Positions 22,396 through 38,988 of a stretch of DNA of 64,000 nt are shown in pieces (position 1 is the first letter of the stretch; the number at the start of each line of letters is the position of its first letter). The notes beneath the pieces are model-generated. The model had not been told where the DNA came from, did not search any database, and saw only the letters and a program-made list of their open reading frames with translations. Source of the DNA: Gammaproteobacteria bacterium (GTDB lineage: Bacteria > Pseudomonadota > Gammaproteobacteria > Competibacterales > Competibacteraceae); the NCBI GenBank assembly GCA_020846135.1, contig JADLEK010000076.1:1-64000 (forward strand), written 5' to 3'. The position numbers and the translations under genes are program-made.

Positions 22396-22839
22396 ATGGA
22401 ATCACGCATCGCTGACATCACCCACGTTATCCAGCTTTCAGTAGCCCCGGCGTTTTTGCTGGTCGCCATCGGCAATCTGCTCATGATTCTGAGCGCGCGG
22501 TTGGGGCGGATCGTGGATCGTCGGCGGGTCCTTGAAGACCGGTTAGGCGGACTCAGCGGTGACGCAGCCGCCGGGATCGAGACGGAACTGGCGCATTTGA
22601 ACCGGCGAGCTGCTTTGATCTACTTCGCTACCCTATCTGCGGTGCTGGGGGCGCTGGCGGTATGCCTGGTCGTGGCGGGCGCGTTTCTCGGGGCGCTGCT
22701 GGAGGTGGAGATGAAACTGGCCGAAGGGGTAGCCGGCCTGTTCGTGCTGGCCATGATCTCGATGCTCGTCTCCTGGAGCCTGCTGCTGCGCGAGGTCTAT
22801 CTCACCATCCGGGTCGGCGCTGCTCGCCTTCACCGGTAG
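22396..22839 (+). CDS. DUF2721 family membrane protein
   Basis: The 147-residue protein has three hydrophobic segments: one near residues 12-32, two between about 75 and 135. A conserved-looking N-terminal half contains ITHVIQLSVAPAFLLVAIG, ARLGRIVDRRRVLE and LNRRAALIYFAT. These blocks match the DUF2721 family of small bacterial inner-membrane proteins of unknown function. It is 80 bases upstream of the NRPS start on the same strand and could share its promoter, but its family is not otherwise linked to peptide synthesis. Confidence 0.8.
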   Translation: MESRIADITHVIQLSVAPAFLLVAIGNLLMILSARLGRIVDRRRVLEDRLGGLSGDAAAGIETELAHLNRRAALIYFATLSAVLGALAVCLVVAGAFLGALLEVEMKLAEGVAGLFVLAMISMLVSWSLLLREVYLTIRVGAARLHR

Positions 22840-22919
22840 CGCCGTCATTTTCACTAACTCCGAATATGCCCCGCATACCTTCTGTCAGAGTCCGATCTGA
22901 ATTAACCGAGGAGACAACC

Positions 22920-25900
22920 ATGACTCGCCAGTATTACCCGCTGACTCATCCTCAAAAACGCATCTGGTTTGGTGAGAAATTAACGCCCGGCTATGACTTC
23001 GCGACCATTGCCGGACGCATCACCATTCAGGGTCCGGCCAGTGCGACCTTGCTGAGTCAGGCGCTGAACCGGATTCTGGAAAAAAACGCCGGTTTACGCT
23101 TACGTTTTGTCGAGCTTGAGGGTGAAGGCGACGCCTTTACCAATACCCGGCAATATGTCGCCGATTACCAGCCAGTTAAAATTTTAATTCTTGACTTTTC
23201 CCATGCGTCTCTGGCTGAAGTGGATGACTGGTGCCTGGCGGAAAGCGCCAAACCTTTTCAGTTACTGGATGCCGATTTATATCAGTTCGCCATTCTGAAA
23301 ACCGCTGACAGCACCACGCTCTTTCTGAAATTTCATCATCTGATTGCCGATGGACTGAGTTGCTGGGGACCGTTTCTTGAACAACTGATCAGCTTTTACA
23401 CCAGTCTGATTAACAAGGTCGGCTTTGAAGACAAGCCTATCGTTTCCTATCTGAATTTTATTGAAGAAGAAGCGGCTTATCAGGAATCTGCGCTGTTCGC
23501 TGAAGATCGCCAGTTCTGGCTGGAAAAATTTGCCGATCCTCTGGAAGAACAACCCTTTTATCTGGATAAAGGCCCGGCCAGCGATCTTTCCGTACAATCC
23601 TTGACCTGTCATATCCCGGATGAGTTATGGCAAGCCTTAAAACAATTCAGTCGCGAGAATAAAACCCCGCCCTTCCGCCTGTTATTAACCGGGTTGTATC
23701 TCTATTTCGCCCGCATCGGTCAACACTATGATCAGGTGCTGGATCTGGCTCATCACAATCGCAACCAGAAAGCGGATTTACAGACCATCGGCATGTTTGT
23801 CAGTACTGTGCCACTGCGCCTGACGCTGGATCCCGAAACCTCGTTCCTGGACGCACTGCGCATTGTCAGTCAGGAACTGGAAACGGTGCTGAAAGGCCCG
23901 CAACGCTTCCCCTATAACCTGCTGGTCGAGGCGTTGCGCACCCGGCACGGAACCGGCCTGAACAGCGCCTGTTCGATTTCCCAGGTTCGCCTGCCCAGCC
24001 TGCCCGGCATGGACTTTCGGCATTATCAGAACACCTCCGCCACCGAGCCATTGAGCCTGTTTATCTATCCCAATGGCGATTTCGGCTTTCTGTTTCAACG
24101 GGCCTGTTTCAGCGCCGCCGATATCGAGGCGCTGTTTAACCGGCTGTTGACGCTGTTGCAAGATGCGCTGACCCAGCCGGAGCGGCCGCTCTGGCAACTG
24201 AATCTGCTGCCGGCGGTGGAGCAACAACAGCTTTTGCAGGACTTCAACGCGACGGCACTGCCGGTTCCCACCGACCGCACCTTCCCGGAACTGTTCGCCG
24301 AGCAAGTCGCCCGGACTCCAGACCGGCTGGCGCTGGTCTATCGGGATGAGCGTTATACCTATCAGCAACTCGACGCCAAAACCAACGCGCTGGCGCGGGT
24401 GCTGCGGGATCGCGGGGTTCAGCCCGACGCTATTGTGCCGATCCTGCTGCATCGGTCGGCGGAAATGCTGATTGCCGCCTTGGCGATCATGAAGGCGGGC
24501 GGCGCGTATTTGCCGGTTGACGCTGATTATCCCCAGCCGCGCATTGATTTCATGCTGGCCGACAGCGGCGCGACGCTGTTGGTGTCCCAGATCGAATTGC
24601 GCGAGAAAGCCGGCGCATTTACCGGCCTCTGGCTGGATATTCACGACCAGGCCCTCTATGCCGGCGGCGATTTGCCCCTGTGGACCGGCAGCCGCCCGGA
24701 GCGTCTGGCCTACGTCATCTATACCTCCGGCTCCACCGGCCAGCCCAAGGGCGTCCTGATCGAGCAGCGCAATCTGGTCAACGTGTGCTTCAGTGAAAAC
24801 CGGGACAACGCGCTGACCGCCGAAGACGCCTTCGCCAATTTTGCCAGCTTCAGCTTCGATACCTCGGTCACTTGCCTGTTTCCGCCGTTGCTGGTAGGCG
24901 CGGCAGTGCATATCGCGCCGGAAGAATTGCGGCTGGCCCCGGAACTGCTCAGCGCCTGGTTTGAAGAGCAGGGCATCACCCTCTGCGACTTTCCAACCCA
25001 GTTCGGTGAGCAATTCATGCAGTTGACCCGGAACCGGTCGCTGCGCCTGCTGATCGTGGGCGGCGACCAGTTGAAAGGGGTCACTCCCCAGTCCTACACG
25101 CTGGTCAATGAATACGGTCCGACTGAATGCACGGTCGTCACGACCCGTTTTCAGGTTGACCCGACCGATGTCGCCAACATCCCGATTGGCCGGCCCGTCG
25201 CGAACACCCAAGCGTATGTGGTCGATGCCCACGGCCAGTTGCAACCGATTGGCGTCCCCGGCGAATTGTGGCTGGGCGGGGCGCAAGTGGCGCGCGGCTA
25301 CTGGAATCGCCCGGAATTGACGGCTGAGAAGTTTATTGCCGATCCCTTCGCCTCCCCTCTCCCCGTGGGAGAGGGGCCGGGGGCGAGGTCGTCCCGCGTC
25401 TACCGCACTGGCGACATCGTGCGCTGGCGGGCGGATGGGAATCTGGAGTTCATTGGCCGGCGCGATTTTCAGATCAAGATTCGCGGCTTCCGGGTGGAAC
25501 TGGGCGATATTGAAGCCGCCTTGCGCCAGCATCCGGAGGTGGCCGATGCGGCGGTGATCAGCGGTCAAAATGCCGGCGGCACCGCGTTCATTGCCGCTTA
25601 TGCGGTGTTGCGCGATAGCCAAGGCGCGACCGATCAGGACGATTTGCGCCGCTTCCTGGCGGAGCGCTTGCCCGATTACATGGTCCCGGCCCGCCTTGGC
25701 CTGGTCCCACACCTCCCGATGACCACTCACGGCAAACTGGATCGGCAGGCGCTACTGGCGACCCTGCCGCCGGAAACCACCGTGGACCGGATCACGCCAC
25801 GCAATGACCGGGAGCAAATCCTGGCGGACATCTGGCAGGAAGTTCTCAGGCTGGAGGAAGTGGGCGTCACTGAAAACTTCTTCCATCTGGGCGGCGACTC

Positions 25901-28900
25901 GATCATGAGCATCCAGATTCTGTCGCGGGCGCGCAGTCGGGGACTGGGGATCAAGGGAGCGCACTTTTTCGCTCATCCCACCATTGCCGGGCTGGCCGAA
26001 GTTGCCGAAACCCTGGCTCCGGCGAGCAGCGACCATCCGGCTGAGGGTCTGGCTCAGTTGTTGCCGATTCAGCGCTGGTTCTTCGCCCTGGCTTCGCCGG
26101 AACCGCATTACTTCAATCAGTCCTTTTGCCTGAAACCCCGGCAACCGCTGACGGCGGCGTTCCTTGAGCAGGCGCTGGAGTGCGTGGGCCGTCATCACGA
26201 CGCGCTGCGGCTACGCTTTCAACCCTTGGCGGACGGGGCTTGGGAGCAGCGCTACGCCGCCCTCGATACCCCGATCTTCCGGTTTACCGAAGTCGATTTG
26301 CGCCCGGTTGCCGAGTCCGAGCGCACCGCCCGACAAGCCCGCCTCCTTGATCAATTACAACACGGATTTGATCTGCAACACGGACCGCTGGCCGCTGCAA
26401 TCCTGGCTCATGGCTGGACGGCGGGCGAACAGCGTCTGCTGATCGCCGCGCATCACTTGGTGGTGGATGTGGTCTCCTGGCGGATTCTGCTGGAAGACCT
26501 GGAAAGCGCTTATTCGGCGCTTGAACGGGGTCAGGCGCCGGCGCTGCCGCCTCGGACCGCCGCCTATGCCGAATGGGGCGCGGCTTTACAGCGCTATGCC
26601 CAAAGTCCGGCTTTAGCCGAAATTCAACCGTACTGGACGCGGATCAGCGAGAACCCGCCGCCCTTAAAGCGGGATCGCGACGCGCCGTTGCCGGTCCTGC
26701 GCGACACCGCAACGCTGACCTTGCATCTGCCGATGGGGCAAACCGCGCCCTTGCTGGAAAAACCCTTTGGCCTGTACCGCGCCCGCGCCAACGATGTGCT
26801 GCTGACCGCGCTGACCCTGGCGATCTTCCGCTGGAGCGGCGCCCGCGAGTGGCGGCTCGACCTGGAGGGGCATGGCCGCGAGGAAGAGATCGGCCAACTC
26901 GACGTGTCCCGCACCGTCGGCTGGTTCACCAGCCTGTTCCCGGTACGGCTGCGCTTGCCCGAACACTTCACTGCCGATCCAGCCCCGACTGATCTGGTCC
27001 GGGCGCTGCTGACGATCAAGGAAACGCTGCGTGGCATTCCCGGCAATGGCATCAGTTACGGCGTCCTGCGCTACCTAGGTGCGGGCATCGTCCACAGCCC
27101 CGACCCGGAGGTCAGTTTCAATTACCTGGGCAGTCTGGCCGGCGACCCACGCGCCTTTCTCGCGTTCAGCGATGAAGCCAGTGGTGAGCCGGTCGCGCCG
27201 GATACCCCGCTGGCGCATCTGCTGGAAATTGACGGCTGGGAGTCAGGGGGCGAACTGACCTTTCTGCTTCGCTACAGCCTGAAGCATTTCGACCCGGCGA
27301 CGATCCAGGCGCTGGCCGCCGCTTTCCAGTCCAGTCTGGAACACTTGTCGGCGCTGTTCGCTCCCGCCGTCACCCGCGCCTTCTCGCCTGCGGACTTCCC
27401 TCATACCGGCCTCAGCCAGTCGCAACTCGACCAACTCGCTGCTACCGGGGACATCGAGGACATTTACCGGTTGACGCCCCTGCAGGAAGGGATTTTGTTC
27501 CATACCTGCCTGCATCCCGAAGCGGGTGAATACCTGACCCAGACCCATTGGCGCTTCCTCGATCCAGTGGATTTGCCGGCGCTGCGCCAGGCGTGGACCG
27601 CGACGATGCGCCATCACCCGGTGTTTCGCACCGCTTTTGCCTGGGAAGATCTGCCCGCTCCGGTTCAGATCGTGTACGCCACCGTTGATTTTGAATGGGT
27701 GGAACTGGACTGGCGGGAGATTCCCGAAGATCAGTTCCCCGCTCAATTTCAGACCCTCCTCGACGACGATCGCCGCCGGGGCTTTGATCTGCGGCGACCG
27801 GGACTGACCCGGGTGATCCTGATCCGGCGGCCCGAAGGCGACCGGCTGGTCTGGACCGATCACCACATTCTGACCGACGGCTGGTGTCTGCCCCTGCTGC
27901 TTGGCGAGCTGAATGAACGCACTGTGGCGCTGCGTGAACACCGCGCTCCCCGCCTGGAATCCGCGCCACCCTTTGCGCGAATGATCGACTGGCTGTTCCA
28001 GCAGGATCGCAGCGAAGCCGAGCAGTTCTGGCGACAACAGGTCGGCGATCTGGAAGCGCCCTCCCGGCTGGGCATCGAGAAAGCCGGCGTCAACCTGGCG
28101 GATCGGACCCTGGCGGCGCAGATGCAGGAACGCGAGCAGCGCTTATCGGTCGCCCTGACCGCCCGCTGCACCGAATTTGCCCGCCAGATGGGTTGCACGA
28201 TCAACACGCTGCTGCAAACCGCCTGGGCGATGAGTCTGGCGGTGAGCAGCGGCCAAGATGATCTCACCTTTGGCATGGTGTCTTCGGGCCGCCCCGGAGA
28301 GTTGCCGGGGGTGGAAAAAATCATCGGCCTGTTTATCAGCAGCGCGCCGATGCGGATTCGCCTGGATGACCCCAGGCCGGTCCGTGAGGCGATTCAGGCG
28401 ATTGCCCAGACTGGCCGCGAGGTCAACCGGCTCAGTTTCATTGGTCTGGAGCAGATTCGCGCCCTGAGCAGGGTTCGCCCACCGGAGCCGCTGTTTCATA
28501 GCATTTTCGCGTTTGAAAATTATCCGGTCACCGAATACTGCGACCGCTCCGACGGGCTGCGACTGGGCGACATCGCCTCGCTGGAACGGGCCGATATGCC
28601 GCTGGCGCTGGTGATTTTCCCCGGCGAAGGCATCACGGTGCGGGCCGCGTTCAACGACCGTCTGATCGAAGCGGTGGGAATTGAACAGTTGCTGGAGCTG
28701 TATCCACAGGCCATTGAGGGCCTGCTGAACCACCCGGAGCGTTCACTCAGCGCCTTGGTGGATGAACTGGCGCAGGCAGCGTATCCGGATCGGCGGCGCG
28801 GCCCGCTGGCTTTACTGTCCGCCGAGGAACAGCAACGAATTCTGGTGGATTTCAACGCCAATAGCCTGCCCGTACCGACTGAACGCACCTTCCCAGACCT

Positions 28901-31900
28901 GTTCGCCGAACAGGTCGCGAAAACCCCGGATCGGCTGGCGCTGGCCTACCAGGAGGATCGCTATACCTATCAGCAACTCGACGCCAAAACCAATGCCCTG
29001 GCGCGAGTGCTGCGGGATCAGGGTGTTCAACCTGACGCTATCGTGCCGATCATGCTCCACCGGTCGGCGGAAATACTGATCGCCGCGCTGGCGATCATGA
29101 AAGCGGGCGGGGCCTATTTGCCGGTTGATCCAGACTACCCGCAGACCCGCATTGATTTCATGCTGGCCGACAGCGGCGCAACCCTGCTGCTGTCGGAAAC
29201 CGCGTTGCGCGAGAAGGCCGGCGCATTCACCGGCGCGTGGCTGGATCTGCGTGACCCGGCGCTGTATGCCGGTCCTGGAACGCCGCTCAAACCGCGCAGT
29301 CGCCCGGAGCATCTGGCCTATGTGATTTATACCTCCGGCTCTACCGGCCAGCCCAAGGGCGTCCTCATCGAACAGCGCAATCTGGTCAACATGTGCTTCG
29401 TCGAAAACCGGGAAAATGCGCTCACGGCTGAGGACGCCTTTGCGATCTACGCCAGTTTCGGTTTCGACTCCTCGGTGATTGGCCTGTTTTCACCGTTGCT
29501 GGGCGGCGCGGCGGTCCATATCGTTCCTGAAGAACTGCGGCTGGCGCCCGAAGCCCTCAGCGCCTGGTTTGAAGAACACCACGTCACCTTGACCATCCTG
29601 CCCACCCAGTTCGGTGAGCAGTTCATGCAACTGACCCGGAACCAGTCGTTGCGTATGTTGATCATGGGTGGCGAGAAGCTGAAGCTGGTCACGCCGCAGT
29701 CGTACCGGGTGATGAATGAATACGGTCCGACGGAATGTACGGTGGTGGCGACCCGTTTTCAGGTTGACCCGACCGATGTCGCCAACATCCCGATTGGCCG
29801 ACCGCTGGCGAACACGCAAGCGTATGTGGTTAATCCACAGGGTCAATTACAGCCGATCGGCGTCCCCGGCGAACTGTGGCTGGGCGGGGCGCAGGTGGCG
29901 CGGGGCTATTGGAATCGGCCTGAACTGACTGCCGAAAAGTTCATAGCTAATCCCTTTGACTCGCCTCGCCCGGAGGGAGATGGGTCGGGGGCGAGGGCGT
30001 CTTGCGTCTATCGCACCGGCGACATCGTGCGCTGGCTGCCGGATGGCAATCTGGAATTCATTGGCCGGCGCGATTTTCAGATCAAGATTCGCGGCTTCCG
30101 GGTGGAGTTGGGCGAAATCGATCAGGCCCTGATCCAGCATCCCGCTGTCCACGATGCCATCGTCATCGCCCGCGAAGACCCCAGCGGCGGGCATTATCTA
30201 TGCGGCTACTACGTCAGCGCCCCGCCAGTAGAGCCTGCGGAAATCAAGGCGTTCCTGGGCTGCGACCTGCCCGCTTACATGATCCCCGCCTTTCTGATGC
30301 CGCTACCCGCCTTGCCGGTCAATACTCATGGCAAAGTGGATCGCAAGGCGTTACCCGACCCGCATCAGGGCGTGGAACGACCCTATCTGGCCCCGCGCAA
30401 CGAGACCGAAGAACAGATCGCCGCGATTTGGCAGGACCTCCTGCATCCTGGACGCAGTCTGAGCCTGGATGATGATTTCTTCGCCTTGGGTGGCAACTCG
30501 CTCAAGGTCATGGCGCTGGCGGCGCGGCTGGAGAAAGCCTTCGGGGTCAAACTGGCTCTGGCGGATCTGTTCAATCGGCCGATTTTGCAGGATTTGGCGG
30601 CGGACATGACGCAGCGCGCCCGGCGGCAGCGCTATACGCCGATTGCGCCGTTGCCGGAGCGCGACTATTACCCGACTTCGGCGGTGCAGAAACGGATGTA
30701 TGTGCTGCAAAGCCTGCCAGGGGTTGGCTCGACCTACAACATTCCCCAGACCTTGCTGCTGGAAGGCCCGCTGGATAGCGCCCGCTTGGCGGAAACCCTG
30801 GATCGGCTGGTGGAGCGCCATGAAATCCTGCGCACCCGGTTCACCTTGATCAACGGCGACATCGTCCAGCAGGCGCAGCTGCAACTGCGCTACAAAAAGC
30901 TGTTCAAGGAAGTCCCGGAAGCCGATTTGGCGGAAGCGCTCAATGAATTTTGCCAGCCCTTTGATCTGAGCGAAGCGCCGCTGTTCCGCATGGGGCTGTT
31001 CAAACTCGCGCCGGAGCGCCATCTGCTGATCATCGACATGCACCACAGCATCAGCGATGGCGCTTCCTCGCTGATTCTGTTCGACGAGTTGTTCACCCTG
31101 TACGAAGGCGGCGCGTTGCCGCCGATGCCGATCCAGTACCGGGATTTTGCCGCCTGGCAAAATCAGTTGCTGGATTCCCCGGTCATGCAGACCCATGAAG
31201 CGTACTGGTTGACGACGCTGGCTGGTGAATTGCCGGTGCTGCAATTACCCACGGATCGCCCCCGCCCGGCCCACCAGCAGTTTTCCGGGGCCAGCATCGA
31301 GTTCGCGCTGGACGAGGCGCTGGTGGCGCAACTGACTGGGATCGCGCAGCGCACTGGCGGCACCCTGTTTATGATGATGCTGGCCGCCTATCAGGTTTTA
31401 TTGAGCAAATATGCCGGGCAGGAAGACCTTATCATCGGTACGGTCGCCTCCGGGCGAACCCATCCCGATACGGAAAACCTGATCGGCATGTTTGTCACTA
31501 CGTTGCCGATTCGGAGTTTCCCCCAGGCCGACAAACCGTTCGTCCAGTACCTGCATGAGGTCCGTCAGGCGGTGTTGGACGCGCTGGAGCATCAGGATTA
31601 TCCGTTTGACCGGATCGTTGAAAACCTGCATCTGCCCCGCGATCCCAGCCGCAACCCGCTGTTCACCGCCTCGTTTGGCCTGCTGGCGGCGGAATCGATT
31701 CAGCAAGCCGCCCAGCTCACCATCCGCCCCTATCCAATCGCCTCGACGGCTTCCCATTTTGATTTAAGCCTGGATATTGGGGTACAAACCGACCGTATCG
31801 ACGGTTATTTCAACTACGCAACCCACCTGTTTGACGCCGCCACCATTGAGCGCATGGCCGGCCATTTCGTTCGGCTGTTGCAGCAGATCGCGGCGGATCC

Positions 31901-34900
31901 GGAGCTGCGACTGGGCGAGATTGAGCTGATGTCCGCCGAGGAACGGCAGCGCCTTCTGGTTGATTTCAACGCTACCGGGTGGCCGGTTCCCACGGATCGC
32001 ACCTTCCCGGAATTGTTTGCCGAGCAGGCTGCAAAAACGCCGGATCGTCCGGCGTTGGTCTATCGGGACCAGCGTTATACCTATCAGCAACTCGACGCCA
32101 AAACCAATGCCTTGGCGCGGGTATTGCGGGATCGCGGGGTTCGGCCCGACGCCATTGTGCCGATTCTGCTGCAGCGTTCCGCCGAAATGCTGATCGCGGC
32201 GCTGGCGATTATGAAAGCGGGCGGCGCGTATTTGCCGGTCGATCCGGAGTACCCACAGGCTCGCATTGACTTCATGCTGGCCGACAGCGGCGCAACGCTG
32301 TTGCTGTCCGAAACTGCGTTGCGCGCGAAGGTCGGCGCGTTTACCGGCGCATGGCTGGATGTCCACGATCCGGCGCTGGATGCCGGACCCGAGACGCCGC
32401 TGGAGCCGCTGGCCGGTCCTGAACATCTGGCCTACGTCATCTACACCTCCGGCTCCACCGGTCAGCCCAAGGGTGTGCTGATCGAGCAACGCAACCTGGT
32501 CAACCTCTGCATCGGGGAAAACGCCGCCAACGCCACGACTGCCGAGGACGCGGTCGCTAATCACTACAGTTTCAGCTTCGATTCGGCGGTTAGTTGCCTG
32601 TTTCCGCCCCTGCTGGTCGGTGCTGCGGTCCATCTGATTCCCGACGAACTGCGCTTGGCTCCGGACGCCCTCAGCGCCTATTTTGAAGCGCAGGGCATCA
32701 CCATCACCGACTTCCCGACCCAGTTTGGCGAGCAGTTCATGCAACTGACCCGCAACCAGTCGCTGCGGCTGTTGCTGATGGGTGGCGAGCGGCTGAAAAC
32801 CGCCGCGCTCCAGCCTTACACGCTCATCAACGCCTACGGTCCGACGGAATGCACGGTCACCGCGACCCGATTCATCATTGACCGGGCGGATTACGCCAAC
32901 ATCCCGATTGGCCGGCCCGTCGCGAACACTCAGGCGTATGTGGTCAATGCGCGTGGTCAGTTGCAGCCGATTGGCGTTCCGGGGGAACTGTGGCTGGGTG
33001 GGGCGCAAGTAGCGCGGGGCTATTGGAATCGGCCCGAATTGACGGCGGAGAAATTCATCGACAATCCGTTTGCAGCCGCCAATACCCCCCACCCCACCCC
33101 TCCCCCCGCGGGGGTGAGGGCGTCCCGCGTCTACCGCACCGGCGACATCGTGCGCTGGAGGCCTGATGGCACACTGGAGTTCTCTGCCCGGCAGGATCAT
33201 CAAGTCAAGATTCGCGGCTTCCGAGTGGAACTGGGCGAGATCGAACAGGTGATCCTCAGTTTGCCCGCCGTCCGGGAAACCGTGGTCGTGGCGCTGGATG
33301 ACGACCACGGCAATCAATATCTGGCCGGGTATCTGGTCGCCGAACCGCCAACGCTGGAACTGGATCTGCCTGCGTTGCGCCAAACCCTGCAAAAAACCCT
33401 GCCGGACTATCTGATCCCGGCGCATTTCGTCCAGTTGGAACACTTGCCCCTGACCGTGAATGGCAAGGTTGATACCCGCGCCTTGCCCAAACCGAGCGCC
33501 ACCACCGAGGAGATCGTCCGGGGCTATATCGCCCCGCGTAATGAGCTGGAACAGACCCTGGCGACGGTTTGGGCTGCGGTGCTGGGGGTCAAAAACGTCG
33601 GGATTCACGACAACTTCTTTGCCCTCGGCGGCAACTCCCTGCAAGCGATTACCCTCATTGCCCGGCTGCAAAAGCACTTCGTAGTCACCATCAACGATCT
33701 CTACCAATGGCAGACCATCGCTGAACTGGCGCCGAAGATCAAACCCCGGCAGGACTATCTGAACCTGTTCCTGAATGAACTGAAGGAGAATCCCGAAGCC
33801 TGGGCCGATCCGCTGGCGGCGAATCCGGGGTTCCAGGCGCAGCTTGGAAAAGCGCAACAGCAGTACCGGCAAACCTGGGCGCGCTATGAACATCTGGATT
33901 TGACGGCCCGGCGTCGCTATCAAAACTTGTTACTGACCGGCGCGACCGGGTTCTTGGGCGCGTATCTGCTCCATGAACTGCTGCGGCAACCGGAGACCAG
34001 CGGGCTGGTCGTGATCGTTCGGGGCGCGGATCAGGCTGATGCGGCGGCGCGGTTGCGCAGCAAGTTCGCGTACTACTTCGGCGCCGCCGCCTGGGATGAT
34101 TTGCAGGTTCCCGACCGGATTACCGTGCTGTGCGGCGACCTGAGCCAGCCGCAATTTGGCCTCAGCGCCGACGAGTATCAGCACTGGACGCAACAGATTG
34201 ACGGGATTCTTAATTCCGCCGCCAATGTCCGCCACTACGGCCATTATCAGGAGTTCTATCAGGCCAACGTGCAGTCGGTCATCAACCTGATCGACTTCGC
34301 CCAGACCGGGGTTCCCAAGGACCTGCACCATATTTCCACGCTGTCGGTGGCGTCAGGCGCATTCCCCGACCGTGATTATGTGGTGTTCACCGAAGATAAC
34401 GCCGATGAAGGCCAGGTCAGCGGCAATCATTACCTCACCACCAAACTGGCGGCGGAAAAGCTGCTGATCGACCGTCGGGCGGATGGGCTGAACGCCAGCA
34501 TTTACCGGGTCGGCAACATCGTGTTCAGCGAAAAAACCGGGCGCTATCAGGAGAACATCGAGGACAACGCCTTCTTCAGTCAGATGCAATCCTTCGTCAA
34601 TCTCGGCGTCACCCCGGCGATGAAAGACGACATCGATTTCACCTATGTGGACAGTCTGGCCCAGGCGATTCTGCGGCTGATGTACGCTACAGCGTTGCGC
34701 AATGAAACCTGGCACCTGGCCAATCCCCGGCGGTTAAGACTGTCCGAGGTGTTGAACGACCCCGGTCTGGGTCTGGCGGTTAGCACCGTACCGTTTGCCG
34801 ATTTCGTCGATACTCTGCTCAACCACCTCGAACAATGGGGTTTTAGCCACCACATTGAAAATATCCTCACCCACATGGGCTGGCTGGGCGGCGAGCTGGA

Positions 34901-35456
34901 ACAACAAACCCTGGTTACCCCGCTGGCGGATCGCACCGAGTTCCTGCTGGAGCGGCTGGGCTTCAACTGGCCGGCGCTGACCCTGCCCAATCTGCTGCCG
35001 ATGCTCCACCAAGCGCTGGCCGAGCGGATCGCTTTCATGGCGCAAACCCCACTGTTTGCCCAGTTAACCCCCGAACAACAGGCCATCCTGGCCGGTCAGG
35101 CCACCATGACCGCCTTCCGCAATGAAAAACCGCTGGTCTGGGAAGGCGATCCGTCCGATGCGCTCTACCTGGTGATGAACGGCTATCTGGAAATTTCCAG
35201 CACCTCGACCAGCGGCTGGACCGGCACTCTCGGCGTCATGGGCGAGAAGGACTTCATTGGCGAGGAAAGTCTGTTCCCCGGCAAGCGCGCAATCCTGACT
35301 GCCGAAGCGCTGTTGGGCGATGTAGTGGCGCTGCAATTCCCGGGGGCGATACTCCGGGCGATGATTCAGCAGCATCCGCAACTGGCGCTGAATCTGATCG
35401 AGGCGCTGGAAACCCGGTTGCAGCGGCTGGCCAAGCTGGTGATCAGCATCAGTTGA
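22920..35456 (+). CDS. Three-module NRPS with terminal reductase and cNMP-binding-like domain
   Basis: The 4178-residue synthetase starts at the ATG at 22920 with a GAGGAG site; an open frame upstream overlaps DUF2721. Approximate domain starts in residues: C 1 (HHLIADG near 139), A 441, T 975 (GGDS), E 1040 (HHLVVDVVSW, EGHGRE), C 1510 (HHILTDG), A 1980, T 2505 (GGNS), C 2580 (HHSISDG), A 3016, T 3550 (GGNS), thioester reductase 3665 (TGATGFLG; Y-x3-K in YLTTK near 3838), cNMP-binding-like 4040-4178 (EGDPSDALYLVMNGYLEI, GEESLF). Hand-aligned pocket codes are DTTDIGEVVK, DSIIIGEVVK and DSSDLGAVTK; none points firmly to a substrate. The predicted product is a tripeptide with a D-residue at position 1, possibly N-acylated, released as an aldehyde or alcohol. 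No phosphopantetheinyl transferase or exporter lies nearby. Confidence 0.95.
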   Translation: MTRQYYPLTHPQKRIWFGEKLTPGYDFATIAGRITIQGPASATLLSQALNRILEKNAGLRLRFVELEGEGDAFTNTRQYVADYQPVKILILDFSHASLAEVDDWCLAESAKPFQLLDADLYQFAILKTADSTTLFLKFHHLIADGLSCWGPFLEQLISFYTSLINKVGFEDKPIVSYLNFIEEEAAYQESALFAEDRQFWLEKFADPLEEQPFYLDKGPASDLSVQSLTCHIPDELWQALKQFSRENKTPPFRLLLTGLYLYFARIGQHYDQVLDLAHHNRNQKADLQTIGMFVSTVPLRLTLDPETSFLDALRIVSQELETVLKGPQRFPYNLLVEALRTRHGTGLNSACSISQVRLPSLPGMDFRHYQNTSATEPLSLFIYPNGDFGFLFQRACFSAADIEALFNRLLTLLQDALTQPERPLWQLNLLPAVEQQQLLQDFNATALPVPTDRTFPELFAEQVARTPDRLALVYRDERYTYQQLDAKTNALARVLRDRGVQPDAIVPILLHRSAEMLIAALAIMKAGGAYLPVDADYPQPRIDFMLADSGATLLVSQIELREKAGAFTGLWLDIHDQALYAGGDLPLWTGSRPERLAYVIYTSGSTGQPKGVLIEQRNLVNVCFSENRDNALTAEDAFANFASFSFDTSVTCLFPPLLVGAAVHIAPEELRLAPELLSAWFEEQGITLCDFPTQFGEQFMQLTRNRSLRLLIVGGDQLKGVTPQSYTLVNEYGPTECTVVTTRFQVDPTDVANIPIGRPVANTQAYVVDAHGQLQPIGVPGELWLGGAQVARGYWNRPELTAEKFIADPFASPLPVGEGPGARSSRVYRTGDIVRWRADGNLEFIGRRDFQIKIRGFRVELGDIEAALRQHPEVADAAVISGQNAGGTAFIAAYAVLRDSQGATDQDDLRRFLAERLPDYMVPARLGLVPHLPMTTHGKLDRQALLATLPPETTVDRITPRNDREQILADIWQEVLRLEEVGVTENFFHLGGDSIMSIQILSRARSRGLGIKGAHFFAHPTIAGLAEVAETLAPASSDHPAEGLAQLLPIQRWFFALASPEPHYFNQSFCLKPRQPLTAAFLEQALECVGRHHDALRLRFQPLADGAWEQRYAALDTPIFRFTEVDLRPVAESERTARQARLLDQLQHGFDLQHGPLAAAILAHGWTAGEQRLLIAAHHLVVDVVSWRILLEDLESAYSALERGQAPALPPRTAAYAEWGAALQRYAQSPALAEIQPYWTRISENPPPLKRDRDAPLPVLRDTATLTLHLPMGQTAPLLEKPFGLYRARANDVLLTALTLAIFRWSGAREWRLDLEGHGREEEIGQLDVSRTVGWFTSLFPVRLRLPEHFTADPAPTDLVRALLTIKETLRGIPGNGISYGVLRYLGAGIVHSPDPEVSFNYLGSLAGDPRAFLAFSDEASGEPVAPDTPLAHLLEIDGWESGGELTFLLRYSLKHFDPATIQALAAAFQSSLEHLSALFAPAVTRAFSPADFPHTGLSQSQLDQLAATGDIEDIYRLTPLQEGILFHTCLHPEAGEYLTQTHWRFLDPVDLPALRQAWTATMRHHPVFRTAFAWEDLPAPVQIVYATVDFEWVELDWREIPEDQFPAQFQTLLDDDRRRGFDLRRPGLTRVILIRRPEGDRLVWTDHHILTDGWCLPLLLGELNERTVALREHRAPRLESAPPFARMIDWLFQQDRSEAEQFWRQQVGDLEAPSRLGIEKAGVNLADRTLAAQMQEREQRLSVALTARCTEFARQMGCTINTLLQTAWAMSLAVSSGQDDLTFGMVSSGRPGELPGVEKIIGLFISSAPMRIRLDDPRPVREAIQAIAQTGREVNRLSFIGLEQIRALSRVRPPEPLFHSIFAFENYPVTEYCDRSDGLRLGDIASLERADMPLALVIFPGEGITVRAAFNDRLIEAVGIEQLLELYPQAIEGLLNHPERSLSALVDELAQAAYPDRRRGPLALLSAEEQQRILVDFNANSLPVPTERTFPDLFAEQVAKTPDRLALAYQEDRYTYQQLDAKTNALARVLRDQGVQPDAIVPIMLHRSAEILIAALAIMKAGGAYLPVDPDYPQTRIDFMLADSGATLLLSETALREKAGAFTGAWLDLRDPALYAGPGTPLKPRSRPEHLAYVIYTSGSTGQPKGVLIEQRNLVNMCFVENRENALTAEDAFAIYASFGFDSSVIGLFSPLLGGAAVHIVPEELRLAPEALSAWFEEHHVTLTILPTQFGEQFMQLTRNQSLRMLIMGGEKLKLVTPQSYRVMNEYGPTECTVVATRFQVDPTDVANIPIGRPLANTQAYVVNPQGQLQPIGVPGELWLGGAQVARGYWNRPELTAEKFIANPFDSPRPEGDGSGARASCVYRTGDIVRWLPDGNLEFIGRRDFQIKIRGFRVELGEIDQALIQHPAVHDAIVIAREDPSGGHYLCGYYVSAPPVEPAEIKAFLGCDLPAYMIPAFLMPLPALPVNTHGKVDRKALPDPHQGVERPYLAPRNETEEQIAAIWQDLLHPGRSLSLDDDFFALGGNSLKVMALAARLEKAFGVKLALADLFNRPILQDLAADMTQRARRQRYTPIAPLPERDYYPTSAVQKRMYVLQSLPGVGSTYNIPQTLLLEGPLDSARLAETLDRLVERHEILRTRFTLINGDIVQQAQLQLRYKKLFKEVPEADLAEALNEFCQPFDLSEAPLFRMGLFKLAPERHLLIIDMHHSISDGASSLILFDELFTLYEGGALPPMPIQYRDFAAWQNQLLDSPVMQTHEAYWLTTLAGELPVLQLPTDRPRPAHQQFSGASIEFALDEALVAQLTGIAQRTGGTLFMMMLAAYQVLLSKYAGQEDLIIGTVASGRTHPDTENLIGMFVTTLPIRSFPQADKPFVQYLHEVRQAVLDALEHQDYPFDRIVENLHLPRDPSRNPLFTASFGLLAAESIQQAAQLTIRPYPIASTASHFDLSLDIGVQTDRIDGYFNYATHLFDAATIERMAGHFVRLLQQIAADPELRLGEIELMSAEERQRLLVDFNATGWPVPTDRTFPELFAEQAAKTPDRPALVYRDQRYTYQQLDAKTNALARVLRDRGVRPDAIVPILLQRSAEMLIAALAIMKAGGAYLPVDPEYPQARIDFMLADSGATLLLSETALRAKVGAFTGAWLDVHDPALDAGPETPLEPLAGPEHLAYVIYTSGSTGQPKGVLIEQRNLVNLCIGENAANATTAEDAVANHYSFSFDSAVSCLFPPLLVGAAVHLIPDELRLAPDALSAYFEAQGITITDFPTQFGEQFMQLTRNQSLRLLLMGGERLKTAALQPYTLINAYGPTECTVTATRFIIDRADYANIPIGRPVANTQAYVVNARGQLQPIGVPGELWLGGAQVARGYWNRPELTAEKFIDNPFAAANTPHPTPPPAGVRASRVYRTGDIVRWRPDGTLEFSARQDHQVKIRGFRVELGEIEQVILSLPAVRETVVVALDDDHGNQYLAGYLVAEPPTLELDLPALRQTLQKTLPDYLIPAHFVQLEHLPLTVNGKVDTRALPKPSATTEEIVRGYIAPRNELEQTLATVWAAVLGVKNVGIHDNFFALGGNSLQAITLIARLQKHFVVTINDLYQWQTIAELAPKIKPRQDYLNLFLNELKENPEAWADPLAANPGFQAQLGKAQQQYRQTWARYEHLDLTARRRYQNLLLTGATGFLGAYLLHELLRQPETSGLVVIVRGADQADAAARLRSKFAYYFGAAAWDDLQVPDRITVLCGDLSQPQFGLSADEYQHWTQQIDGILNSAANVRHYGHYQEFYQANVQSVINLIDFAQTGVPKDLHHISTLSVASGAFPDRDYVVFTEDNADEGQVSGNHYLTTKLAAEKLLIDRRADGLNASIYRVGNIVFSEKTGRYQENIEDNAFFSQMQSFVNLGVTPAMKDDIDFTYVDSLAQAILRLMYATALRNETWHLANPRRLRLSEVLNDPGLGLAVSTVPFADFVDTLLNHLEQWGFSHHIENILTHMGWLGGELEQQTLVTPLADRTEFLLERLGFNWPALTLPNLLPMLHQALAERIAFMAQTPLFAQLTPEQQAILAGQATMTAFRNEKPLVWEGDPSDALYLVMNGYLEISSTSTSGWTGTLGVMGEKDFIGEESLFPGKRAILTAEALLGDVVALQFPGAILRAMIQQHPQLALNLIEALETRLQRLAKLVISIS
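25351..25393 (+). repeat. In-frame palindromic repeat in adenylation domain 1
   Basis: A near-perfect hairpin (CCCCTCTCCC / GGGAGAGGGG) followed by CCGGGGGCGAGG lies inside the NRPS frame. It encodes the loop SPLPVGEGPGARSS just before the VYRTGDIVRW motif. The DNA looks like a dispersed repeat of the CCCTCTCCC...GGGAGAGGG type and not like ordinary A-domain sequence. It lengthens the loop without breaking the frame. Confidence 0.75.
29961..30001 (+). repeat. In-frame repeat at the same loop of adenylation domain 2
   Basis: This is a diverged version of the element in A domain 1: CGCCCGGAGGGAGATGGG, then TCGGGGGCGAGGGCG. It encodes SPRPEGDGSGARAS at the equivalent loop before VYRTGDIVRW. The 3' half keeps the GGGGGCGAGG core, while the hairpin arm is degenerate. 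Confidence 0.65.
33084..33121 (+). repeat. In-frame repeat at the same loop of adenylation domain 3
   Basis: A C-rich run followed by TCCCCCCGCGGGGGTGAGGG encodes TPHPTPPPAGVRAS at the same loop before VYRTGDIVRW. The sequence is clearly different from those in A domains 1 and 2 but has the same hairpin-plus-GAGGGCG design. Confidence 0.65.
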
Positions 35457-35463
35457 CCGGAAC

Positions 35464-38400
35464 TTGAGAGAAAACCCGCGACGCGCTGTTGACGATCCGC
35501 CCGTACTCGACTCGGACGTTCTCGATCAATTCATCACGGTCTGGAGCGAGGCGACGGGGCCGGAGCGGGCCAATTATCAGTTGTTTCTGACCGGATTCGC
35601 CGTCCTGGCCGTACCGCCGCCCGAACCTGCCAGCGATGATCCGGCCCGGAATGCCTACGTTTTCGAGCGGCGGGTCGAGATTCGCCATCCCGACGGCAAT
35701 GTCACCAAGGGCTATATCGATCTGTACCTCCAGCATTTTGTGCTGGAGGTCAAGCAGACTGGCCAGGCGCTGGAGACGCCGGGTTGGAGTCAGGCGATGC
35801 TGGCGGCGCATCATCAGGCTGACCGCTATGTGCGCAATCTGCCGCCCGAGGAGGGGCGTCCGCCGTTCCTCATTTTGACCGACGTGGGCCGGGTGCTGGA
35901 GCTGTATGCCGAGTTCAGCGGCTCCGGGGGGATTTATACGCCGTTCCCGGACCCCGGCCATCACCGGATTCGCCTGGAGGATTTGCGCGATCCAGCGATT
36001 CAGCAGCGGCTGCGGCAGGTGTGGCGGGACCCGCTAAGTTTGGATCCCAGTCGTTATGCGGCGCGAGTGACGCGGGAAATCAGCGCGGCTTTGGCGAATC
36101 TGGCGCGGTCGCTGGAAGCGCAAGGGTATGCCGTTGAACGGGTGGCCGGATTTCTGATGCAGTGCCTGTTCACGATGTTCGCCGAGGATGTGGAGTTGTT
36201 GTCAGCAGACGGCTTTACCCGGTTACTGGAGTGGTTGCAGGCGCAACCGGCGTCGTTTGTCGATGCGGTGTCGGCGCTGTGGCGGAATATGGACGCCGGG
36301 GGTTACGACGGACAGTTGATGGTGAAGGTCAAGCGCTTCAACGGTGGGTTGTTCCACACGATTGACCCGCTGCCGCTGACCGCCGGGCAGATTGGGCAGT
36401 TGCTCGAAGCGGCCCGGCAGGATTGGCGGTTCGTGGAACCGGCGATTTTCGGGACCTTGCTGGAACGCGCGATCAATCCCCGCGAACGGCACAAACTTGG
36501 CGCATATTACACGCCCCGCGCTTATGTGGAACGACTGGTGATGCCGACGGTGATTGAACCGCTGCGCCGGGAATGGAGTTTGGTACAGGTTGCGGCGGCG
36601 GCCTGGGTACGGCAGAACCAGTTGGATGGGGCGCTGGCCGAAGTGCAGACCTTTCATCATCGGTTGTGCAGTCTGCGGATTCTCGACCCGGCCTGTGGCA
36701 GCGGCAATTTCCTCTATGTGACGCTGGAGCATTTGAAACGGCTGGAGGGGGAAGTGCTGAACCTGCTGTGCGAACTGAGTAGCGGGCAGGAGGCGCTGGA
36801 TACAAGCGGGCTGACGGTCGATCCGCATCAGTTTCTCGGTCTGGAGCGCAATCCCCGGGCGGCGGCGATTGCCGAAATGGTGCTGTGGATTGGCTATCTG
36901 CAATGGCATTACCGGATTCATCGGCGGCTGGATTTGCCAGAGCCGATCCTGCGCGATTGCCACAACATCGAAGGTCGGGACGCCCTGATCGCGTTTGATG
37001 GGTGTGAACCGGAATTGGACGATCACGGCCAGCCGGTGACGCGCCGGGATGGCGTGAGTTTCAAACCCAGTCTGATCACCGGCGAACCGCTCCCGGATGA
37101 GAACCGGCGCATTCCCCAGGAACGCTCTGTCAATCCCCGCCCGGCGGTGTGGCCTGCAGCGGATGCGGATTATGTGGTGGGCAATCCACCGTTTATTGGC
37201 GCTTCGGCGATGCGTCGGGCGCTGGGCGATGGCTATGTGGATGCGGTGCGGGCGGCGTGGCCGGCGGTTCCGGAATCGGCGGATTTTGTGATGTACTGGT
37301 GGCAGATCGCCGCGACCGCAGTCCGGCAGGGTGAATTGCAACAGTTCGGTTTCATCACCACCAATTCGATCCGGCAGGCCTTCAATCGGCGGGTGATGGA
37401 AGCGCATTTAGCGCCCCGCAATGGGGAGTCATTATCTCTGGTCTTCGCCATTCCCGATCATCCCTGGGTCGATGCCGGCGATGGCGCGGCGGTGCGGATC
37501 GCCATGACCGTGGCGGAAGCCGGGGAACGGGAGGGCGTGTTGCAGACGGTGCGCCGGGAAATGGCCTGTGAGGAAGACGCCCGCGCTGTCGAGTTGACCA
37601 CCCGCACCGGCCGACTCCATGCCGATTTGACCATCGGGGCGAATGTGGCAGGGTCTAAGATTCTGTTAGCCAATGCAAATTTGAGTAATCGTGGCGTCAG
37701 CTTGTTTGGGTCCGGGTTTATCGTTTCTCCAGCGGAGGCCATCACGCTGGGATTAGGCGCGATACCCGGTCTTGAACAACACATCCGTCACTACCGCAAT
37801 GGCCGTGATCTCACCCAAAACTCACGCGGCGCGATGGTGATTGATCTTCTTGGTCTCACCCTCGCCGAGGTACGGCAACATTTCCCGGAGGTCTGCCAAT
37901 GGGTACTGGAGCGGGTTAAACCGGAGCGCGATCAAAATAACCGGGAAAGCCGTCGCCGCAATTGGTGGTTGTTTGGCGAAACCAATCCGAAGTTGCGTCA
38001 CCAGTTAGCGAGTCTCTCCCGCTATATCGCCACCGTAGAAACCACGAAACATCGTATTTTCCAGTTCCTCGATGCCGACATTCTGCCGGATAACAAGCTC
38101 ATTAATATCGCCTTGAATGAAGTCTTTTACCTCGGTGTTTTATCAAGCCGCGTTCATTTGGTCTGGGCTACAGCTAATTCAGCATCTCCAAGCGCTTATA
38201 AAGGCGATGTGGTTTATGTAAAAACCCGCTGCTTTGAAACCTTCCCTTTCCCGGATGCCCCCGCCGAATCCGCTGCCTGTATCCGCGACTTGGCCGAACA
38301 ACTCGATGCCCACCGCAAGCGTCAGCAGGCGCAATCTCCCGGCTTGACCCTGACCGGGATGTACAACGTCCTGGAGCAACTGCGCGCCGGCCAATCCCTG

Positions 38401-38988
38401 AACGCTAAAGAGCAGGCCATTCACCAGCAGGGTCTGATCTCCCTGCTGCAGGAACTGCACGACGATCTGGATCGCGCGGTATTCGCCGCCTACGGCTGGG
38501 CGGATCTCGCCGATGCCCTGGTCGGGCAACCCGGCGCGACGACACCCCTTCCCGATAAACCCGCCGCCCAGCAGGAAGCCGAGGAAGAGCTGCTGCGCCG
38601 ACTGTTCGATCTCAACACCCAACGCGCCCGCGAAGAAGCGCAGGGGCACATCCGCTGGCTGCGTCCCGCCTGGCAACAGCCGACCGCGACGACTGAACAA
38701 CGCTTGGCGCAGCAGGAACCACTCACCGATCTGGAAACCGACGTTGCCCCGGAACCTGCCGCCAAACAGCCCTGGCCGAAAGCCATGCGCGACCAGATTG
38801 AGGCGGTCCGCGAACGACTAGGTGTCGGTCCACGAACCGTTGATCAACTCGCCGCCCGGTTCCAGCGCAAACCGGTCAAAGCGGTACAGATGGTGCTGGA
38901 TACCCTGGAGGCCATGAATCTGGCCCAGCGGATCGTTGACCATTGGCAGTTGAACCACATTCAAATTTGCTCCCGGATGATGAGTTGA
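35464..38988 (+). CDS. Single-chain MmeI-type (Type IIL/IIG) restriction-modification enzyme
   Basis: The 1174-residue protein combines endonuclease and adenine-N6 methyltransferase. The N-terminal PD-(D/E)XK nuclease has D near residue 85 in YIDLYLQ and EVK near 95 in FVLEVKQ. A helical spacer leads to LGAYYTPRAYV. The methyltransferase has motif I LDPACGSGNFL near 408 and motif IV VGNPPF near 573. A target-recognition region (about 37640-38240) is visibly more AT-rich than its flanks. The last ~60 residues look like a winged helix (TVDQLAARFQ). MmeI itself is 919 residues, so this one is longer. No ATG is available; TTG at 35464 is the only start that keeps the nuclease, seven bases after the NRPS stop. 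No separate methylase or specificity gene is present. Confidence 0.87.
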   Translation: MRENPRRAVDDPPVLDSDVLDQFITVWSEATGPERANYQLFLTGFAVLAVPPPEPASDDPARNAYVFERRVEIRHPDGNVTKGYIDLYLQHFVLEVKQTGQALETPGWSQAMLAAHHQADRYVRNLPPEEGRPPFLILTDVGRVLELYAEFSGSGGIYTPFPDPGHHRIRLEDLRDPAIQQRLRQVWRDPLSLDPSRYAARVTREISAALANLARSLEAQGYAVERVAGFLMQCLFTMFAEDVELLSADGFTRLLEWLQAQPASFVDAVSALWRNMDAGGYDGQLMVKVKRFNGGLFHTIDPLPLTAGQIGQLLEAARQDWRFVEPAIFGTLLERAINPRERHKLGAYYTPRAYVERLVMPTVIEPLRREWSLVQVAAAAWVRQNQLDGALAEVQTFHHRLCSLRILDPACGSGNFLYVTLEHLKRLEGEVLNLLCELSSGQEALDTSGLTVDPHQFLGLERNPRAAAIAEMVLWIGYLQWHYRIHRRLDLPEPILRDCHNIEGRDALIAFDGCEPELDDHGQPVTRRDGVSFKPSLITGEPLPDENRRIPQERSVNPRPAVWPAADADYVVGNPPFIGASAMRRALGDGYVDAVRAAWPAVPESADFVMYWWQIAATAVRQGELQQFGFITTNSIRQAFNRRVMEAHLAPRNGESLSLVFAIPDHPWVDAGDGAAVRIAMTVAEAGEREGVLQTVRREMACEEDARAVELTTRTGRLHADLTIGANVAGSKILLANANLSNRGVSLFGSGFIVSPAEAITLGLGAIPGLEQHIRHYRNGRDLTQNSRGAMVIDLLGLTLAEVRQHFPEVCQWVLERVKPERDQNNRESRRRNWWLFGETNPKLRHQLASLSRYIATVETTKHRIFQFLDADILPDNKLINIALNEVFYLGVLSSRVHLVWATANSASPSAYKGDVVYVKTRCFETFPFPDAPAESAACIRDLAEQLDAHRKRQQAQSPGLTLTGMYNVLEQLRAGQSLNAKEQAIHQQGLISLLQELHDDLDRAVFAAYGWADLADALVGQPGATTPLPDKPAAQQEAEEELLRRLFDLNTQRAREEAQGHIRWLRPAWQQPTATTEQRLAQQEPLTDLETDVAPEPAAKQPWPKAMRDQIEAVRERLGVGPRTVDQLAARFQRKPVKAVQMVLDTLEAMNLAQRIVDHWQLNHIQICSRMMS

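Follow-up and report, generated by a model that had tools for sequence, protein, structure and literature searches.

How has a GC-rich stretch of coding DNA come to lie at one and the same loop in all three adenylation (A) domains of a single enzyme? The question is raised by a gene for a non-ribosomal peptide synthetase (NRPS) on contig JADLEK010000076.1 of a gammaproteobacterium from the Competibacteraceae, the first 64,000 nucleotides of which constitute the window analysed here (the genome, G000, comprises 3.71 Mb). Each A domain (A1, A2, and A3) carries one in-frame insert, located between the residues PF and the sequence VYRTGD (the A7 motif). Very probably, these inserts are copies or remnants of a dispersed hairpin repeat, named F1 here, that entered a permissive loop of the A domain in frame, the same selection having acted on copies in linkers of polyketide synthases (PKSs) and of DNA polymerase I; some of these hairpins would be combined into composites of the IS66 type of miniature inverted-repeat transposable elements (MITEs). 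The gene and the three inserts are as follows.

22662–35456, plus strand: NRPS gene, 4264 aa (list of open reading frames, ORFs, and Pfam)
25344–25394, plus strand: F1 hairpin repeat in the A1 loop, translated as ASPLPVGEGPGARSSR; covariance model R1, E = 6.1e-9
29952–30002, plus strand: F1 hairpin repeat in the A2 loop, translated as DSPRPEGDGSGARASC; R1, E = 2.9e-8
33084–33125, plus strand: degenerate F1-like insert in the A3 loop, translated within AAANTPHPTPPPAGVRASR; R1, E = 0.0084 at 33092–33125

The initial annotation had described three hairpin-like stretches in frame in the loop before VYRTGD of all three A domains, and their presence, position, and frame were confirmed. The PF-to-VYRTGD loop comprises 16, 16, and 19 residues in A1, A2, and A3, respectively, compared with 8 residues in empty orthologues. 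The GC content of the inserts is 73–85%, the right junction is common to all three, and the A1 insert matches the 22-base core pattern of F1 with one mismatch. Their hairpin-like character was clear only for A1 (z = −2.6 relative to dinucleotide shuffles; A2, z = −0.8; A3, z = −1.2), and the A2 and A3 inserts are therefore worn hairpins. The surrounding A-domain DNA, originally thought to be nearly identical between modules, is in fact about 82–85% identical upstream of the inserts and 67–79% just downstream. Hence, the insert sequences do differ from one another, as had been stated, but the supposed contrast with the flanks disappears: the A1 and A2 inserts share their junctions and can be aligned gaplessly, and a count by eye gives 10 differences over 51 positions, similar to the divergence of the flanks. 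A scan of the window against Rfam at gathering thresholds produced no match.

An F1 copy combines a hairpin, for example CTCCCCTCTCCC-loop-GGGAGAGGGG, with the tail YYGGGGGTGAGGG after it, and such copies are dispersed over the genome. The core pattern with at most three mismatches occurs at 18 places in G000, compared with none for the reversed pattern, and BLASTN with the A1 region also retrieves dispersed copies (E = 1e-6). The covariance model R1, built from 15 F1 copies and applied with the cut-off E ≤ 0.01, has 22 matches in G000, 11 in G001, 3 in G002, and none in G039; its left arm was aligned ungapped and paired in an alternative register, and hence its bit scores draw more on the right half. 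Some copies in G000 are situated inside named protein domains, and some have no ORF of at least 150 aa across them. Matches to the F1 pattern were found in 41 of the 115 genomes searched, with nearly all high counts coming from the Competibacteraceae. The reversed control over these genomes was mostly zero, yet it yielded 20 and 13 matches in G006, and the F1 count of that genome is therefore not trusted. A terminal GGGCGTC is present in a minority of the 15 aligned copies, and most copies have neither a GTAG nor a CGTC tag. The identification of F1 as a repetitive extragenic palindrome (REP) associated with a RAYT transposase was dropped, since none of 20 Y1_Tnp (RAYT-like) loci has a convincing F1 copy beside it (one weak match with four mismatches was judged spurious). 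Head-to-tail tandems of F1 with a spacing of 45 or 48 bases were observed in two further genomes (L069 on C152 of G018 and L066 on C65 of G021).

Orthologous synthetases from a genome of the same genus (G003) and one of the same family (G028) show both empty and filled states of the loop. In G003, F1 is found in A1 and A3, and the A2 loop is empty (TDGDHNAR). In G028, the A2 (TDEDSTDR) and A3 (ADGDLNAR) loops are empty, and A1 has an insert of a different palindromic repeat, F2, situated after an intact native loop (VDGDSTDR). All six filled loops of the three enzymes keep the frame, having lengths of 16, 16, 19, 17, 16, and 49 residues. The native eight-residue loop is most simply taken as ancestral, since it is alike across modules and species. 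The flanks of the A2 insert in G000 share 92% and 94% identity with the empty A2 of G003, vs. 82% and 79% with A1 of G000 itself; the simplest reading is hence that the A2 insert arose after G000 and G003 had split and did not come through a long conversion tract, although a very short tract, or loss of the insert in G003, may be an alternative. None of 41 other distinct loop matches over all loci compared (one of them a regular-expression artefact) contains a comparable insert. The view of the initial annotation that the loop is a tolerated landing site for dispersed repeats is thus supported both by the copies elsewhere in the genome, some of them in DNA without a long ORF, and by the three empty loops in two relatives; the opposite pattern, the same loop in unrelated NRPSs with no dispersed copies, was not observed. 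The strongest support for the loop as a landing site comes from G028 A1, where a second, unrelated repeat with transposon ends occupies the same loop of an orthologue.

This second repeat, the palindrome CCCCCCTTT..AAAGGGGGG, is unrelated to F1. Exact F2 palindromes number 86 in G028, 11 in G003, 3 in G000, and 0 in G039, and the reversed control gave none in all nine genomes searched. They are arranged as inverted pairs within units of 113–116 bp that have the ends GTAAGC/GTAACC...GTTAC. The insert in G028 A1 is a 115-bp unit with the ends GTAAGC and GGTTAT which, together with an eroded 8-bp duplication (5/8), adds 123 nt, that is, 41 codons. Units bounded by terminal inverted repeats (TIRs) were sought in 20 fetched stretches and 13 earlier loci, and 11 distinct ones were found. 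Their 8-bp flanking repeats match at 8/8 positions in four units, at 7/8 in two, at 8/8 with a one-base offset (judged from the flanks) in two, and at 5/8 in one (G028 A1); two units have none. One of the units with a perfect 8-bp repeat is a 125-bp composite of F1-like hairpins in G000 (L122:1192–1316, C18), and its ends are of the GTAAGC type. GTAA-type inverted ends are therefore present on F2 composites and on this F1-like composite; single F1 hairpins (the window's among them) lack such ends and are for this reason not classified as MITEs. At an IS66 transposase locus from the same family (L260), the end GTAACCGTTCAGTTCCC adjoins the transposase frame and is identical to an F2-unit end over the latter's first 17 bases. 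The ends of IS66 elements are given as GTAAGCG, with 8-bp repeats, in one report (PMC11946415). Since the ends and repeats of the TIR-bounded F2 and F1-like composites match these, and L260 shares its end with an F2 unit, the composites are probably IS66-type MITEs, presumably moved by IS66.

The same two repeats are found in other genes, including those of megasynthases. In-frame F1 copies of G000 include three in a PKS frame of 5187 aa, two in tandem in a PKS of 3799 aa, one in the AT-DH linker of a 2385-aa PKS, and one at a PKS C-terminus past its ACP; others are situated in HypF and in a type ISP restriction enzyme. In the ACP-KS linker, G000 has F1 in one orientation and G003 has it in the reverse one, and the repeat found there in G028 is F2. 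The megasynthase sets of G000 and G003 contain no F2, and that of G028 contains 14 F2 and 2 F1 copies. The linker between the two exonuclease domains of DNA polymerase I in G000 (L112:7195–9906, C55) contains an in-frame, tail-less F1 palindrome with MITE-like outer arms, and repeat matches fall in this linker in G018 and G021 as well; the alignment used comprised 28 rows, two of 30 having been left out because they were in the wrong frame. This linker is a further repeated landing site, used in several genera. In a pilin-like protein of G000 (L116:5498–6262, C41), an in-frame F1 directly precedes the methylation motif GFTLLEM and would extend the leader peptide.

The consequences for the protein were assessed on an AlphaFold2 model, built with 16 sequences, of the following domain.

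24162–25778, plus strand: adenylation domain A1 (core and A-sub), 539 aa, structure predicted

The mean predicted local distance difference test score (pLDDT) is 86.5 for the whole model and 43 for residues 401–410, which are located inside the repeat-encoded loop and form coil between strands. Solved A domains, LgrA among them, match the model. In sequence alignments with LgrA the insert stands out as extra residues, and the core motifs of the A domain are preserved in the alignment. In the model, the loop encoded by the repeat is disordered and the rest of the domain is predicted to be intact. The loop peptides are likely to be translated and the activity of the A domain to be retained.

We therefore propose that short mobile palindromic F1 repeats would enter a permissive surface loop between PF and VYRTGD, that only frame-keeping insertions would survive, with in-frame trimming later, and that the repeat would consequently be translated as a Pro/Gly-rich disordered loop on an enzyme that remains intact. 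Inverted pairs of F1- and F2-type hairpins also form the interior of small non-autonomous elements, which have GTAAGC-type inverted ends, duplicate 8 bp of their target, and are presumably mobilised in trans by the IS66 transposase. The same selection on frame and tolerance would account for the repeats in the linkers of PKSs and of DNA polymerase I. Single F1 hairpins may be either trimmed remnants of such elements or separately moving REP-like units. Several observations weigh against parts of this scheme. The A3 insert is only weakly F1, with R1 giving E = 0.0084. Neither a target duplication nor an outer inverted repeat can be recognised around the A-domain F1 copies, and F1 substitutes for the native loop instead of lengthening it (in G003 A1, 45 nt replace 21). 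The A1, A2, and A3 copies may not represent three independent landings, since micro-conversion between modules could spread an insert. As for IS66, ends of this kind are absent from the best match in G000 (L254), the second match there (L261) is a short remnant next to the end GTAGCCGTTCAG, the ends at L255 lack a target duplication, and no complete mobile IS66 was confirmed among the loci checked.

An insertion made once, in one ancestral A domain, and passed on to the remaining modules through gene conversion or duplication of modules would dispense with repeated landing; it is a possible but unlikely origin of the whole pattern. It is consistent with the gapless alignment of the A1 and A2 inserts, whose divergence is that of their flanks, and with a block of A-core similarity, about 80% identical among modules, that stops about 110 nt past the insert. 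However, the flank identities given above rule out long-tract conversion as the origin of the A2 insert, and neither the F2 insert of G028 A1, unrelated to F1 and having its own ends, nor the two F1 orientations and the F2 copy in the ACP-KS linker is explained by a single event. Another explanation, that the loop is an ordinary variable linker and its likeness to a repeat is compositional, would account for the high GC content of the inserts, but its probability is close to nil. The reversed pattern has no matches in G000 compared with 18 for F1, the dispersed copies retrieved by BLASTN argue in the same direction, and in codon-shuffled megasynthases F1 with at most four mismatches is expected 0.07 times in G000 and 0.07 times in G003, compared with 9 and 16 observed copies; for F2 in the G028 loci, 0.06 are expected and 14 observed. 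The reversed-pattern and codon-shuffle controls thus rule out compositional chance.

Mobile bypassing elements are sequences skipped by the ribosome, and the stable, GC-rich A1 hairpin could be imagined to be skipped in this way, or spliced out, and never to become protein. Yet all six filled A-domain loops and the listed megasynthase copies keep the frame, and a skipped sequence would not have to be a multiple of three; ribosomal skipping was rejected on this ground, and we regard this whole class of explanations as most improbable. An explanation of another kind is that the repeats are retained as useful, with flexible longer loops tuning domain movement or common repeats promoting recombination between modules. 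The density of F1 in megasynthase genes far exceeds the genome average: in G000, 8 of the 22 copies found by the covariance model are located in NRPS and PKS frames, which amount to about 2.2% of all genomic sequence (binomial P = 1e-8), and in G003, 10 of the 21 pattern copies fall within six fetched megasynthase loci totalling 71.9 kb. However, linker tolerance, module duplication, or insertion bias could yield an equal picture, and usefulness as the reason for retention appears doubtful. We also consider, as a conjecture with the odds clearly against it, that in the Competibacteraceae mobile hairpins preferentially colonise NRPS and PKS genes to a degree that tolerance does not explain, make up a real share of the loops and interdomain linkers of these enzymes, and serve, as shared homology, the swapping or homogenising of modules, the repeat type in each lineage being the locally abundant one.

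Protein-coding palindromes as such are already known. Rickettsia palindromic elements (RPEs) are described as repeats of about 150 bp, dispersed and situated in frame within unrelated metabolic genes (PMC10969869, PMC3733652). F1 and F2 are likewise palindromic, dispersed, and in frame in protein genes; as far as these descriptions allow a comparison, the difference is that here hairpins of 45–50 nt or composites of 113–126 bp crowd equivalent NRPS and PKS sites. REPs with GTAG or CGTC tags have been found inside ORFs, including that of DNA polymerase I, and at roughly one position of recB two Xanthomonas species have REPs that differ from each other (Di Nocera et al. 2013, PMC3733652). F1 resembles them as a small hairpin within ORFs, DNA polymerase I included, but differs in its YYGGGGGTGAGGG tail and in mostly lacking a terminal GTAG or CGTC (some copies end in GGGCGTC), and the available sections of that paper name no NRPS or PKS among the carriers. 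With IS66-family MITEs, the composites share the GTAAGC/GTAACC inverted ends and the 8-bp target duplications, and an F2-unit end agrees with that of L260 over 17 bases; they differ in that the interior is formed by either of two unlike hairpin types, and most F1 copies are solitary and have no such ends. Finally, Coxiella QMITEs extend or enter proteins in frame, mostly hypothetical proteins or gene ends; this in-frame contribution is shared, but the available part of that report names no homologous loop that was used repeatedly (PMC5896051).

Searches of open-licence papers in PMC listed no earlier description of repeats of this kind in the loops of NRPSs or PKSs and, as far as these searches show, it is new that two types of repeat have repeatedly used equivalent sites in megasynthases. 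Mobile DNA would now make up part of assembly-line enzymes. Its conversion into protein is usually viewed as a set of isolated, scattered cases, and here natural replicates are available: several modules and species have homologous loops and linkers in both states, unoccupied or occupied by one of two unrelated repeats. The sites at which these enzymes accept added residues, and recombination of modules aided by repeats, become testable, and both questions are of use to NRPS and PKS engineering.

According to Pfam, the 4264-aa NRPS consists of three C-A-T modules followed by NAD_binding_4 (thioester-reductase-like) and a C-terminal cNMP-binding domain. The A-core block (24162–25500 in the window and the homologous parts of A2 and A3) is about 80% identical among modules, and identity drops to about 50% at the A8 hinge, which suggests that A-core cassettes were exchanged between modules in the past. 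The presence of the thioester-reductase-like and cNMP-binding domains in one frame at the end of the NRPS (34100–35456) is an unusual fusion. Directly 3′ of the NRPS gene, at 35464–38985, Pfam identifies a gene for an MmeI-like restriction-modification enzyme.

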